Assembly: GCA_022563405.1 (NCBI GenBank)
Contig: JADFNK010000002.1
Span: forward strand, 1 to 64,000
DNA: 64,000 nt
Origin: Gemmatimonadota bacterium
GTDB taxonomy: Bacteria; Gemmatimonadota; Gemmatimonadetes; Longimicrobiales; Gaopeijiaceae
Direction of reading: 5' to 3'
Made by a program: the position numbers and the translations under genes. Below, one piece after another: positions 40,134-44,629 of the stretch; position 1 is the first letter of the stretch; every line of letters starts with the position of its first letter. The notes under the pieces were generated by a model that worked only from the letters and a program-made list of their open reading frames with translations, searched no databases and was not told the DNA's origin.

Positions 40134-41792
40134 GTGAACGCCTCGGATTCCGTCCCGGTACCACCAAGTTCGAAGGAGGTCGAGTCGGTCGTACGACGAT
40201 CGGCTGATCTTACGGTGGCGGCGGCCCTCGCATCGCGCGCCACGACCGATCCGGAAGGCACCTTCCTGATTTTCGAAGACGATACGGTCACGTTCGGGCA
40301 GATGGAGACTCGTGCGGAGGCTCTGGCCGCGTCGCTCCATGGTCTGGGTATCAAGCCCGGAGATCGGGTTGCCGTGGTCATGCCGTCATGGCCCGAGTTC
40401 GTCATCTCGATGTTCGCCGTGGCAAAGCTGGGCGCCGTCCTGGTGCCTTTGAATCCGAGGCTGACTGCCGATGACCTGCGTTATACTCTCCGCCATTCCG
40501 AGGCGGTGGCAGCGATTACCGCCGAAACCCTGCAAGACCTCGACTTTCTCCAACTCTTCGAGGAGCTGCTGGCTCAGCTTCCGGACCTCCAGCACGTCAT
40601 TACCGTGGGTGAGGAGGATCTTTGGCACGATGACCGCGTGTTTCAGTTCGAGGACCTGCTCTCCGCCGGGGGCGGACGGGACTACTCGGCCAACTCACCC
40701 CCCTCGGCAGATGAAGTTTTCGCCATACTCTACACGGCCGGCACGACCGGAAAGCCCAAGGGCGTCGAACTGACCCACGCCAACCTCTTGCAGGTAGCGG
40801 GCAGCACAGCCGATGCCTTGGGGTTGGACCAGGATGACCGCGTGGTGGGCATCATGGCCTTGTTTCACGTGTTCGGGCTGGGGCCGGGAATCCTCGGGTC
40901 CCTCCTTGCGGGGGCGGCGCTCGTACTCCAGGACGAGTTCGGCCCGGCCGGCGCGTTGGACCTCGTAGAGCGGCATCGAGCGACCGTTCATTATGGGGTT
41001 CCGACGTTGTTTGTCACCGAACTCCGGGAGCAGGCCAAAGTCCCGAGAGATCTCACCTCTCTTCGCCGCGGCTTGGTAGCAGGAGCACCCGTTTCCGACG
41101 AACTCGTGAAGGCGGTACAGGACAAGATTTGCCCGGAGCTTCTGATCGCCTACTCCCTCACAGAGACGTCCTCGACGGTATGCGTCACGCGACCGAGTGA
41201 TCCGGCGGCGAAGCGTATCTTCACGGTCGGGCGTCCTCTGGAGAACAATGTCGTCCGGATCGTGGACGAGGATGGAGCCGAGTTGCCGGTGGAGAGCGTG
41301 GGGGAGATCGTGGTCCGGGGCCCAGGAGTCATGCGGGGGTATTACCGACAACCCCGTAAGACATCCGACTCACTCGACGTGGACGGGCACTTTCGTACCG
41401 GTGATCTGGGGATGGAGGACGAGGAAGGATTCATCCATTTGGTGGGCCGAAAGAAAGAGGTTATCATTCGGAGTGGTTCCAACGTATACCCCCGGGAGGT
41501 TGAGGATCGACTTCAATCGCACCCGGCGATACGTGAGACCATGGTGGTTGGAGTCCCGGACGAGCTTCTGGGAGAGGCCATCTGCGCGTGCGTCCTCCTT
41601 GAGGAGGGGGCCATCGTGACCGGCCAAGAGATACAAGATTGGTGCTCGGTCACACTCGCCGATTACAAGGTGCCCGACGTCGTCCAGTTCATGGACGAAT
41701 TCCCGCTGACGGGGACCGGCAAGGTCCAGCGGGGCGAGTTGGCGCGTCTGATTCGAGCGGCGCACGCGGAACCAGCAGAACCAAAGACATGA
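40134..41792 (+). CDS. Long-chain acyl-CoA synthetase-like AMP-binding ligase
   Basis: A 552-residue ANL-superfamily adenylate-forming enzyme, most like fatty-acid CoA ligases (FadD). Motifs: the P-loop [17 protein letters not shown], the A5 region AYSLTETSS, A7-A8 FRTGDLGMEDEEGFIHLVGR followed by KKEVIIRSGSNVYPREVE, and the C-terminal Lys in TGTGKVQRGEL. The GTG at 40134 comes one base after the aroB stop. Chain-length preference cannot be read from sequence. An electron-transfer flavoprotein pair three genes downstream suggests a fatty-acid oxidation context. Confidence 0.88.
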   Translation: MNASDSVPVPPSSKEVESVVRRSADLTVAAALASRATTDPEGTFLIFEDDTVTFGQMETRAEALAASLHGLGIKPGDRVAVVMPSWPEFVISMFAVAKLGAVLVPLNPRLTADDLRYTLRHSEAVAAITAETLQDLDFLQLFEELLAQLPDLQHVITVGEEDLWHDDRVFQFEDLLSAGGGRDYSANSPPSADEVFAILYTAGTTGKPKGVELTHANLLQVAGSTADALGLDQDDRVVGIMALFHVFGLGPGILGSLLAGAALVLQDEFGPAGALDLVERHRATVHYGVPTLFVTELREQAKVPRDLTSLRRGLVAGAPVSDELVKAVQDKICPELLIAYSLTETSSTVCVTRPSDPAAKRIFTVGRPLENNVVRIVDEDGAELPVESVGEIVVRGPGVMRGYYRQPRKTSDSLDVDGHFRTGDLGMEDEEGFIHLVGRKKEVIIRSGSNVYPREVEDRLQSHPAIRETMVVGVPDELLGEAICACVLLEEGAIVTGQEIQDWCSVTLADYKVPDVVQFMDEFPLTGTGKVQRGELARLIRAAHAEPAEPKT

Positions 41793-41930
41793 AGGATCGC
41801 CGGGCACTCAGGTCAGTGACCCCCCCGACTCCTTCCAGACCCGACACGTCGCGAGGCGGTGCGAAGGACTGGAACGAGTGGGGAGGTCTCGCGAGTGGGG
41901 CCGGCACCAATTTTCGCGAGAAGGAAAAAA

Positions 41931-43970
41931 ATGAATCAGTACGTTCAGGCTCCGCATGTAGAGGGGCACAGTAAAGCACCGGTCGACGCTCCCAACGCGG
42001 CCCTCCTCATCGACTTCGACAACGTCACGATGGGGATGCGTAGTGACCTCTCCAAAGAACTGAAGAGCCTACTCCAATCCGACATCATCCGCGGAAAGGT
42101 GACCGTCCAGAGGGCTTATGCCGACTGGCGGCGCTATCCGCAGTATATCGTCCCGCTCTCCGAGGCGTCCGTAGACTTGATTTGGGCTCCGGCCTACGGG
42201 AGCTCGAAGAAGAACGCGACCGACATCCGAATGGCGATCGACGGGATGGAGTTGGTCTTCACCCGACCCGAGATCGGCACTTTCATTCTGCTCACCGGTG
42301 ACTCGGATTTTTCGAGCTTGGTTCTGAAGCTCAAGGAGTATGGAAAGTATGTGATCGGTGTGGGAATCCAGGAGTCCAGCTCGGACATCCTGGTTCAGAA
42401 CTGCGACGAGTACTACTCGTACACGAGCCTCACCGGGCTTCGAAAGACAACCGAGATCTCCGGCAAGACCAACGACCCGTGGGATCTCGTCGACAGAGCG
42501 GTGAGCCGCATGACCACACGAGGCGACGTCATGCGATCCGACCGCCTCAAGCAGGTGATGTTGGAGCTCGACGCCAGGTTCAGTGAGGGGAATTTCGGCT
42601 TCAGCAAGTTTTCTAAGTTTGTCGCCGAAGCCGCCCACCGGGGTCTTGTCCGGCTCCACAAACTCGAAAATGGGCAGTATGAAGTTCGGCCCGGCTCGGG
42701 TCGGAAAAGGGCCGACGATTCGGCTTCCACTTCCACGAAGGAACCGAAGGAGCAGAGTCGACCGGCCGCGCGAAGAGGGAGGCCGGCGAGGACGCCGCGA
42801 GGCCGGAGGGCCAGCGGCGCCGAGGGTGCTGGGGATAAGGATGTAGGACCGGGGGAGGCCAAGGCAGAAGTTGAAGCTTCGAGCCCGGCGGGAGAGCTCG
42901 AGGGGGAGCCGCTCCGTTCCGCCTACGATCTCATGGTGCGCTGCCTTCAGAATCTCAAGGAGACGGGAAAGAGCTCGGTCCGCGACTCGGACGTCAAACG
43001 AAAGATGTTGGCGGCCGACGCCGGCTTCGACGAGGGAGAACTGGGCTTCGGTAAGTTCAGCCGGTTCCTCGCACAGGCGGAGGAGCATGGTGTGATCTCC
43101 CTCGAAAAAACGGAGATGGGCAACTACCGCGTCTCGCTGCCGGGGCCCGCGGCGGGGGATTCTCGGTCCGTGACCGAGGATCGGGCAGGTGAAGCTGGGG
43201 GGCGGACATCGACGCCGTCAGCTCCAGCGACGCCGTCAGCTCCAGCGACGCCGTCAGCTCCAGCGACGCCGTCAGCTCCAGCGACGCCACCAACAGCGAG
43301 CACACCCGCGGGTGGGGGAGCTGGCTCCGCCGGACGTCTGGGGCCTCGTGGAGGTTCGGGGGGTCGAAGAGAAATCGACGATGGGCCGGTGCTTCTCGAG
43401 GGGCAGATCGTGGGCGGGGTAGGTAGAGCGGCGGAGCGTTCTTCAGCCGGAACCCGTATCCATGCTGGAGGCCTCGGGCTGCCGACGAACGAGCGGGCGA
43501 TCGTCAGCTATCTGACAAACTCCTACGGAGGGGTCGGCAAGAAAACCGCCGAATCACTGGTGGAGGCCTTCGGGGCGAACATCTTCGACGTGTTCGAGAC
43601 CGAGCCTGGGCGGGTGGCCGAGATCGTTCCCCGCCGGGCGTCTCAAGTGTTGGCCGAGTGGAGGGCCGACTTCGCACGGCGGTCGGGGGAACCCGTGGAC
43701 CAAGAAGGGGCCGCGCCGGAGCCTGAAAGGGGGTCGGCGCAGGGCCTAGAGATGGAATCCGTACCCGATTCTTCATCACCCGATTCTTCCTCGTCCTCTT
43801 CCTTCGATTCTTCCTCGTCCTCTTCCTTCGATTCTTCTTCGTCCTCGTCCTTCGATTCTTCTTCGTCCTCCTCCTTCGATTCTTCTGTTTCGGTGCCCAG
43901 ATCGGGCGGGGCTGGGCGCAGGACGCGACCGGGTCCGAGGCGGCCACCTTCCTCCGGTTCAGACGAATAG
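41931..43970 (+). CDS. NYN-domain ribonuclease-like protein with two LOTUS/OST-HTH domains and a C-terminal HHH
   Basis: A 679-residue protein. Residues ~23-165 are a NYN/LabA-type PIN-like nuclease domain with its acidic residues intact (LLIDFDNVT, NATDIRMAID, LLTGDSDFSSLV). Two LOTUS/OST-HTH domains follow at ~185-265 and ~325-405, each with the FGFSKFSKF- or LGFGKFSRF-like core, separated by a basic linker (RPAARRGRPARTPRGRR). Then come a TPSAPA repeat tract, a helix-hairpin-helix resembling the RecD2 N-terminal type (NSYGGVGKKTAESLVEAFG) and a Ser/Phe/Asp repeat tail. It is probably an RNA-targeting nuclease or RNA-binding regulator; the HHH hints at structured nucleic acid. The start is the ATG at 41931, after GAAGGAAAAA. 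Confidence 0.88.
   Translation: MNQYVQAPHVEGHSKAPVDAPNAALLIDFDNVTMGMRSDLSKELKSLLQSDIIRGKVTVQRAYADWRRYPQYIVPLSEASVDLIWAPAYGSSKKNATDIRMAIDGMELVFTRPEIGTFILLTGDSDFSSLVLKLKEYGKYVIGVGIQESSSDILVQNCDEYYSYTSLTGLRKTTEISGKTNDPWDLVDRAVSRMTTRGDVMRSDRLKQVMLELDARFSEGNFGFSKFSKFVAEAAHRGLVRLHKLENGQYEVRPGSGRKRADDSASTSTKEPKEQSRPAARRGRPARTPRGRRASGAEGAGDKDVGPGEAKAEVEASSPAGELEGEPLRSAYDLMVRCLQNLKETGKSSVRDSDVKRKMLAADAGFDEGELGFGKFSRFLAQAEEHGVISLEKTEMGNYRVSLPGPAAGDSRSVTEDRAGEAGGRTSTPSAPATPSAPATPSAPATPSAPATPPTASTPAGGGAGSAGRLGPRGGSGGRREIDDGPVLLEGQIVGGVGRAAERSSAGTRIHAGGLGLPTNERAIVSYLTNSYGGVGKKTAESLVEAFGANIFDVFETEPGRVAEIVPRRASQVLAEWRADFARRSGEPVDQEGAAPEPERGSAQGLEMESVPDSSSPDSSSSSSFDSSSSSSFDSSSSSSFDSSSSSSFDSSVSVPRSGGAGRRTRPGPRRPPSSGSDE
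43211..43282 (+). repeat. 18-bp tandem repeat, four perfect units, inside the NYN-LOTUS gene
   Basis: The unit GACGCCGTCAGCTCCAGC is repeated four times without change (43211-43228, 43229-43246, 43247-43264, 43265-43282), followed by a partial fifth. It encodes the hexapeptide TPSAPA repeatedly. The 18-bp length keeps frame, so copy-number change would alter linker length only. Confidence 0.95.
43782..43877 (+). repeat. 24-bp tandem repeat, four units, near the NYN-LOTUS gene 3' end
   Basis: Four 24-bp units beginning GATTCTTC (43782, 43806, 43830 and 43854) encode repeats of DSSSSSSF. Later units carry synonymous changes (tcc/tct, ctc/tcg), so the protein repeat seems to be maintained. The plus-two frame through the same DNA is open and encodes Phe/Leu-rich peptide. 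Confidence 0.9.
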
Positions 43971-44071
43971 GAAGCTGGCGAAGTGGCTCGCCTGGGCCGG
44001 GCACGTTCGACCGCTCATTCTTCGATCGTCCCGCGGAGCGTGTAGCTCCGGATCTACTCGGGGCGCGGCTC

Positions 44072-44629
44072 GTGTCGACAGTGGACGGGCGCCGAGCGAC
44101 CGGAGTCATCGTTGAAGTCGAGGCATACACCGGTCCGGATGATCCTGCTTCCCATGCGGCCGCTCGTATCGGCCGGACGCGCCGCAACGCTTCTATGTTC
44201 GGGGCACCGGGAACCGCTTACGTCTATCTCAGTTATGGCCTCCACTGGTGCCTGAACGTGGTCACCGGACCGATCGGTGACCCCTGTGCCGTGCTCCTAC
44301 GGGCCGTCGATCCGATCGAGGGCCTGGACATCATGGTCGCTCGGAGAGGCCGCGAGCGGGATCTGACCTCCGGTCCTGGGCGTGTGGGACAGGCGTTCGG
44401 GATCACCGATGCTTTGGATACGCATGACTTGTCGTCGCCTCCCCTGAGGCTTCTTCCCGGCTGGTCGATTCCGCCCGGCTCGGTCGACGTGTCTCCCCGT
44501 GTCGGAGTCAGCCGAGCTCAGGACTGGCCGCTCCGCTTTTTCGTTCGAGGTAACACCTCGGTGTCTCGGATTCGTCGTTCGATGCGGGCCCGAACGGTCC
44601 CCTTGAGCTCGACGGATGCTGTTGCGTAG
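44072..44629 (+). CDS. 3-methyladenine DNA glycosylase (AAG/MPG family)
   Basis: The family excises alkylated purines. Visible are VIVEVEAYTGPDDPASHAA with the catalytic Glu, RNASMFGAPGTAYVYLSYGL, LNVV, AVLLRAVDP and SGPGRVGQAFGI. The first canonical start, GTG at 44072, gives 185 residues but cuts off the conserved N-terminus: the same frame upstream, from about 44003, reads TFDRSFFDRPAERVAPDLLG, which aligns with the family start. No ATG, GTG or TTG lies between the previous in-frame stop (43724-43726) and 44072. Either a rare start codon is used, or there is an indel. It is 16 bases upstream of etfB. Confidence 0.85.
   Translation: MSTVDGRRATGVIVEVEAYTGPDDPASHAAARIGRTRRNASMFGAPGTAYVYLSYGLHWCLNVVTGPIGDPCAVLLRAVDPIEGLDIMVARRGRERDLTSGPGRVGQAFGITDALDTHDLSSPPLRLLPGWSIPPGSVDVSPRVGVSRAQDWPLRFFVRGNTSVSRIRRSMRARTVPLSSTDAVA

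Follow-up and report, generated by a model that had tools for sequence, protein, structure and literature searches.

The locus studied here raises two connected questions: on which nucleic acid does a bacterial protein act when a nuclease domain is joined to two LOTUS domains and a helix-hairpin-helix (HhH) region, and how is the amount of such an enzyme set? The window, that is, the whole stretch of 64,000 nucleotides of Gemmatimonadota DNA that was analysed, contains both the gene and a conserved element directly in front of it. The reading that we consider fairly probable, while leaving real room for doubt, is that the gene encodes a housekeeping NYN-LOTUS-(HhH)2 ribonuclease of the Gemmatimonadota whose dose would be set by a split ribosome-binding site (RBS) bridged by a hairpin.

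The open reading frame at 41931-43970 on the forward (+) strand, the strand of all features described below, was verified, and it encodes a NYN-LOTUS-LOTUS-(HhH)2 protein of 679 amino acids counted from the ATG. The NYN nuclease domain of the DUF88/LK type occupies residues 23-163 (41997-42419) and matches Pfam PF01936 with an E of 2.7e-25. It is followed by the first LOTUS/OST-HTH domain (residues 183-254, 42477-42692), modelled by AlphaFold with pLDDT mostly above 90. Here the Pfam profile PF12872 exceeds its cut-off, with the best stretch at residues 201-250 plus a second, weaker one, and the same profile was matched by all 45 relatives scanned. An RGR-rich linker of low predicted order (linker 1, residues 255-324, 42693-42902) leads to the second LOTUS/OST-HTH domain (residues 325-402, 42903-43136). 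This domain is recognised by a profile built from the family and by AlphaFold run on the relatives' alignments, which reproduces the H-H-H-E-E order of the first domain with a pLDDT of 95-98 across most of its length. The (HhH)2 domain comprises residues 521-585 (43491-43685), and no RRM was found in the Pfam scan of the protein. Thus Pfam, NCBIfam and AlphaFold agree with the original prediction, which described an intact NYN domain, two LOTUS/OST-HTH modules and a C-terminal HhH. The two repeat tracts that it also described exist as well, an 18-bp tandem repeat (4.4 copies, 43210-43288) that codes for (TPSAPA)n in linker 2 and a 24-bp tandem repeat (4.4 copies, 43781-43886) that codes for a Ser/Asp-rich tail, but both are poorly conserved among relatives and lie outside the conserved design.

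The active site of the NYN domain is strongly preserved. Residues D28, D30, D98, D104, D124 and D126 are invariant in 80 of the 80 sequences that cover them, and D65 is invariant in a 45-row alignment, which means that the acidic residues expected of a NYN nuclease have not been lost in the family. The spacing of D28-D65-D98-D124 is 37/33/26, close to the 37/31/26 of the four required aspartates of mouse MARF1, D178-D215-D246-D272 (PMC10226599). AlphaFold models this domain with low confidence only, perhaps because the alignment is nearly invariant; despite the weak model, the profile match settles its identity as a NYN domain. From this identity and the intact aspartates we infer that the NYN domain cleaves RNA.

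The C-terminal region was likewise found to be HhH-like, both by profile and by model. The NCBIfam model TIGR01448 (RecD2) matches residues 517-578 of the full protein with its positions 68-133, and the isolated domain matches positions 68-134 of that model at E 5.5e-8; this part, the N-terminal HhH of RecD2, is the best profile match of the (HhH)2 domain. All of the 50 relatives' HhH sequences match the same model (best E 3.3e-11). The likeness to RecD2 ends there, as only positions 68-134 of the 713 in TIGR01448 match and the helicase domains are absent from the protein. In the protein's own genome (G000, 90% complete), no RecD2 match was found apart from the HhH of the NYN protein. AlphaFold predicts four helices with a mean pLDDT of 90. 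The first hairpin is a canonical GVG and the second is degenerate; G30, G32, T35 and A36 of the HhH alignment A2 are invariant. A profile search of the PDB reaches XPF, topoisomerase V, the AlkA-type 3-methyladenine glycosylase and RuvA, with a weak match to ribosomal S13, so that the structural relatives are mostly DNA-binding repair proteins. Foldseek with the 86-residue HhH model returned nothing significant (best E 1.4, with HhH proteins among the weak matches), probably owing to the small size and purely helical make-up of the domain. Since DNA is the usual ligand of HhH domains, an RNA-only role of the protein is not assured.

A scan of genome contigs yielded 210 relatives, of which 80 were kept; each of these spans most of the query and either belongs to the Gemmatimonadota by title or shares the synteny of the query. 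An even draw of 150 genomes from the phylum, 144 of the class and 6 from another lineage, was then queried with the NYN-LOTUS1 part. It is present in 140 of the 144 class genomes, essentially in single copy and with 69-87% identity among the matches, and it was found in none of the 6 genomes outside the class. The gene is thus a near-universal, slow-evolving, single-copy core gene of its class. An apparent second copy or split gene, at two places far apart in the single-contig genome G135 (L131/L148), was rejected, as the gene breaks at a stretch of N that marks an assembly join. Family-built profiles applied to seven families show the HhH together with a clear second LOTUS domain in f1, f2, f3 and f7, while f4 and f5 have NYN and LOTUS1, at most a weak second LOTUS and no HhH; in f6, the genes are cut by contig ends and the HhH could not be judged. 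Beyond the chromosome, no relatives of the protein were found on viral contigs. Phages and plasmids gave only distant NYN proteins, with 25-34% identity among the matches listed and coverage of at most about the NYN-LOTUS1 part, and the two of these checked by Pfam have no HhH. PADLOC reported no match to a defence system.

We know of no function for bacterial NYN-LOTUS proteins, which were reportedly proposed in 2010 as the origin of the limkain/MARF1 type in eukaryotes. Here, such a protein is core and slow-evolving and has a conserved partner gene, and its own leader offers a candidate for a natural RNA ligand; its function can thereby be tested directly. Pairings of NYN and LOTUS domains are indeed known in bacteria, as originally claimed: Anantharaman, Zhang and Aravind described in 2010 DUF88/LK nucleases carrying one or two OST-HTH domains, as standalone genes whose neighbourhood shows no conserved link to known RNA-processing systems (PMC2848206). 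The present family shares with them the N-terminal NYN/DUF88 domain and, after it, one or two OST-HTH domains. In contrast to their sporadic occurrence, it is near-universal in one class, and it adds the (HhH)2, a glycosylase neighbour and a leader RNA. The architecture had been called distinctive on account of the HhH and the repeats. The term is apt for the HhH fusion, of which the founding OST-HTH paper makes no mention (PMC2848206), but in four of the seven families this core gene regularly has the fusion, and the unconserved repeats do not contribute. Among eukaryotic proteins, MARF1/limkain-b1 and plant DNE1 are alike in combining a NYN endoribonuclease with LOTUS domains, with four similarly spaced catalytic aspartates. 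Whereas MARF1/limkain carries an RRM and multiple LOTUS domains, the protein from the window shows no RRM in the Pfam scan, only two LOTUS domains and (HhH)2 instead; being bacterial, it has no decapping partner. A literature search, which reached only a minority of subscription papers, returned no paper joining the NYN domain, LOTUS and helix-hairpin-helix, and none joining Gemmatimonadota and the NYN domain.

The second question, the control of enzyme dose, leads to the conserved leader at 41880-41930, directly before the NYN gene, which the original prediction had overlooked. It begins with GGGGAGG, a purine-rich tract of Shine-Dalgarno (SD) type on the 5' side of a hairpin (41880-41886), whose columns are mostly invariant or nearly so in the leader alignment A1; the exact GGGGAGGTCTCGC occurs once in the 3.25-Mb genome. 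The hairpin (41887-41921), supported by covariation and a covariance model, consists of a 5' arm at 41887-41895 (TCTCGCGAG), a loop at 41896-41912 and a 3' arm at 41913-41921 (TTCGCGAGA), and a 9-nt spacer (41922-41930) separates it from the AUG. Consequently, folding of the hairpin would shorten the distance from SD to AUG from 44 nt to 9 nt. Across relatives, the leader takes the form GGTGGGGAGG, stem consensus TCTCGCGGC/GCTGCGAGA with a variable-length loop, 5-15 nt and ATG. The loop varies widely in sequence and length, and the spacer between the arms ranges from about 6 to about 38 nt.

Evidence for the stem comes from its pattern of change. RNAalifold proposes the leader stem unaided. 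In 37 sequences, 89.8% of cells pair; moving the partner by 1-3 columns reduces this share to 33-52%. Both sides have changed in 19 cells, whereas shuffling gives 7.4 on average and did not reach 19 in any of 500 trials; with the partner moved by 1-3 columns, the number is 0-8. The arms change by compensation, G-U pairs included, and in four sequences A-U replaces the G-C pair at columns 19/66, without exception. The pair counts are conservative, since in L035 and a small number of other sequences the MAFFT leader alignment puts the 3' arm in the wrong place. Folded as a single sequence, the window leader shows no unusual stability (z about -0.7); the case for the hairpin rests on covariation and position.

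The element is also highly specific to this gene. The covariance model R1 finds the leader in the window at E 2.6e-8, with the next best match at 0.11, and in the 832 kb of loci searched, every one of the 52 matches with E<0.1 lies directly before the NYN gene. A genome-wide search, in which about 144 first-look candidates were scored per genome, gave one match each in 32 of 38 family genomes and no second match at E 0.01. An Rfam scan of the window returned only a tRNA and no match to the leader. The leader is missing in f4 and f5 and also in one subclade within f1; genus g16 belongs to this subclade, which keeps the HhH. As the protein persists in all of these, the leader is not essential to it. 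Two other explanations of the element were tried and rejected. The hairpin is not followed by a U-tract, which rules out a terminator. An in-frame GTG start at 41859, which would make the leader coding, is ruled out by upstream translation across relatives: similar DNA falls in different frames at different loci, and the element is therefore not coding.

The spacing of the leader suggests what it does. In linear sequence, GGAGG and AUG are separated by 34-68 nt (median 43), too far for an SD sequence, but once the covarying hairpin is excised, the distance falls to 5-15 nt (median 10), where a hairpin-bridged RBS would call for about 5-11 nt. Another SD-like 4-mer near the AUG was seen in only 4 of 37 leaders, by a rough count. 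GGGGAGG, hairpin and AUG together look like a split RBS, in which the hairpin would bring the tract within working distance of the AUG and the ribosome would probably use it. Such hairpin-bridged arrangements are known mainly from T4-type phages; if the reading is true, a covariation-conserved example in a chromosomal gene would extend them to a whole bacterial lineage. In T4, the intervening hairpin shortens the SD-AUG distance from 22 to 5 nt in gene 38 and from 27 to 11 nt in gene 25 (PMC3014915). The likeness lies in an SD and an AUG that are too distant linearly and are joined by a hairpin. In contrast to these phage genes, the present one is chromosomal and occurs in many genera of a bacterial class, with a longer gap (median 43 nt) and with covariation across genera. 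A variant is seen in f2 and f7 (L109, L113, L130, L154), where GAGG forms part of the 3' arm of an altered hairpin that runs right up to the AUG; this arrangement suggests sequestration of the SD rather than bridging, and the mode of action may differ there.

Taken as a mechanism, the preferred reading would work as follows. The two LOTUS winged helices would grip RNA, probably G-rich or structured, while in some families the C-terminal (HhH)2 would hold a nucleic-acid backbone, most likely that of a duplex or hybrid. The NYN domain (DUF88/LK) would then cut the RNA, its presumed substrate, with flexible linkers connecting the modules. The amount of nuclease would be controlled post-transcriptionally, at the structured start of its mRNA. 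The original prediction had offered RNA surveillance or action at RNA-DNA hybrids as possible roles.

This arrangement leaves room for a further step, in which the leader would serve as an operator for autoregulation. The NYN-LOTUS-HhH protein would bind its own G-rich tract and hairpin and block or cut the mRNA, so that excess nuclease stops its own synthesis. The LOTUS domains of MARF1 bind G-rich RNA (PMC10226599), and a G-rich strand next to a stem suits this preference, which makes feedback on its own mRNA a natural hypothesis. The element is strictly gene-specific, with one per genome, and among the families examined it occurs only where the HhH form does. There is also a precedent in T4, where the gene 43 polymerase represses its own mRNA via a hairpin near the RBS (PMC3014915). 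However, part of f1 has the HhH without the leader, and the variable loop means that recognition would need the stem and the G-tract. We regard such an operator as a serious possibility that falls short of being probable; binding or cutting of its own leader by the nuclease is a more speculative claim than the hairpin-bridged RBS itself. The fuller form, in which the class-wide NYN-LOTUS ribonuclease controls itself because the SD tract and stem are also its target, and binding or cutting parts the SD from the AUG and turns the gene off, is put forward only tentatively and is rather unlikely.

The gene neighbourhood bears on another reading, in which the protein is mainly a DNA-repair nuclease that its (HhH)2 places on DNA and that works with the downstream glycosylase on damaged DNA or RNA-DNA hybrids. 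A base-excision glycosylase had been noted nearby, and it is a methylpurine (3-methyladenine) DNA glycosylase, MPG (44072-44629; PF02245, E 1.6e-53), whose adjacency is conserved across the class. MPG adjoins the NYN gene in 67 of the 81 loci of the first set. It is the most durable neighbour, present in 10 of 10 f4 and 7 of 9 f5 loci, though the upstream genes there mostly differ. Moreover, members of several families (f2, f4 and f5 among them) have a 4-nt overlap between the NYN stop and the MPG start, which makes coupled translation likely there. The mostly DNA-binding repair relatives of the HhH point in the same direction. Against this, f4 and f5 retain MPG without the HhH, several f1 members keep NYN without MPG, and the NYN and LOTUS domains otherwise act on RNA. 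A functional link between NYN and MPG is therefore only suggested, given the f1 members without MPG and the fact that operon order can persist by inertia. A link of the nuclease to alkylation repair is more speculative, and a mainly DNA-repair role seems to us unlikely.

Over much of f1, the order of genes is aroB, AMP-ligase, NYN, MPG, etfB, etfA, LytM and moeA. The AMP-dependent ligase, identified by reading of the sequence (40134-41792), is by synteny the usual upstream neighbour in the HhH-bearing families. Many relatives have a membrane transporter-like gene between MPG and etfB (e.g., L005:7660-9072 and L029:7400-9007), a gene that neither the window nor its closest relatives have. The homology of MPG runs upstream of its first listed start, GTG 44072, and the true start is probably upstream, though no in-frame ATG, GTG or TTG was found in 44000-44072.

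Two readings remain that differ from the preferred one in a single element each. The inverted repeat upstream of the gene could be a DNA operator for a transcription factor, with no RNA hairpin, as the palindromic TCTCGCGA/TCGCGAGA in the window might suggest. A DNA site of this kind fits poorly with an arm spacer of such variable length and with compensatory changes that include G-U pairs. Additionally, the element keeps a constrained distance to the AUG, and the genomes searched yielded no second site; this reading is very improbable. Finally, the protein could be of a common bacterial NYN-LOTUS type whose tail is disordered and lineage-specific and whose HhH match is incidental. This reading has a precedent in the known bacterial fusions of NYN with one or two OST-HTH domains (PMC2848206), but it can be given hardly any credence in view of the GxG, Thr-Ala and Arg positions that are invariant in 50 HhH sequences and of the confident AlphaFold fold.
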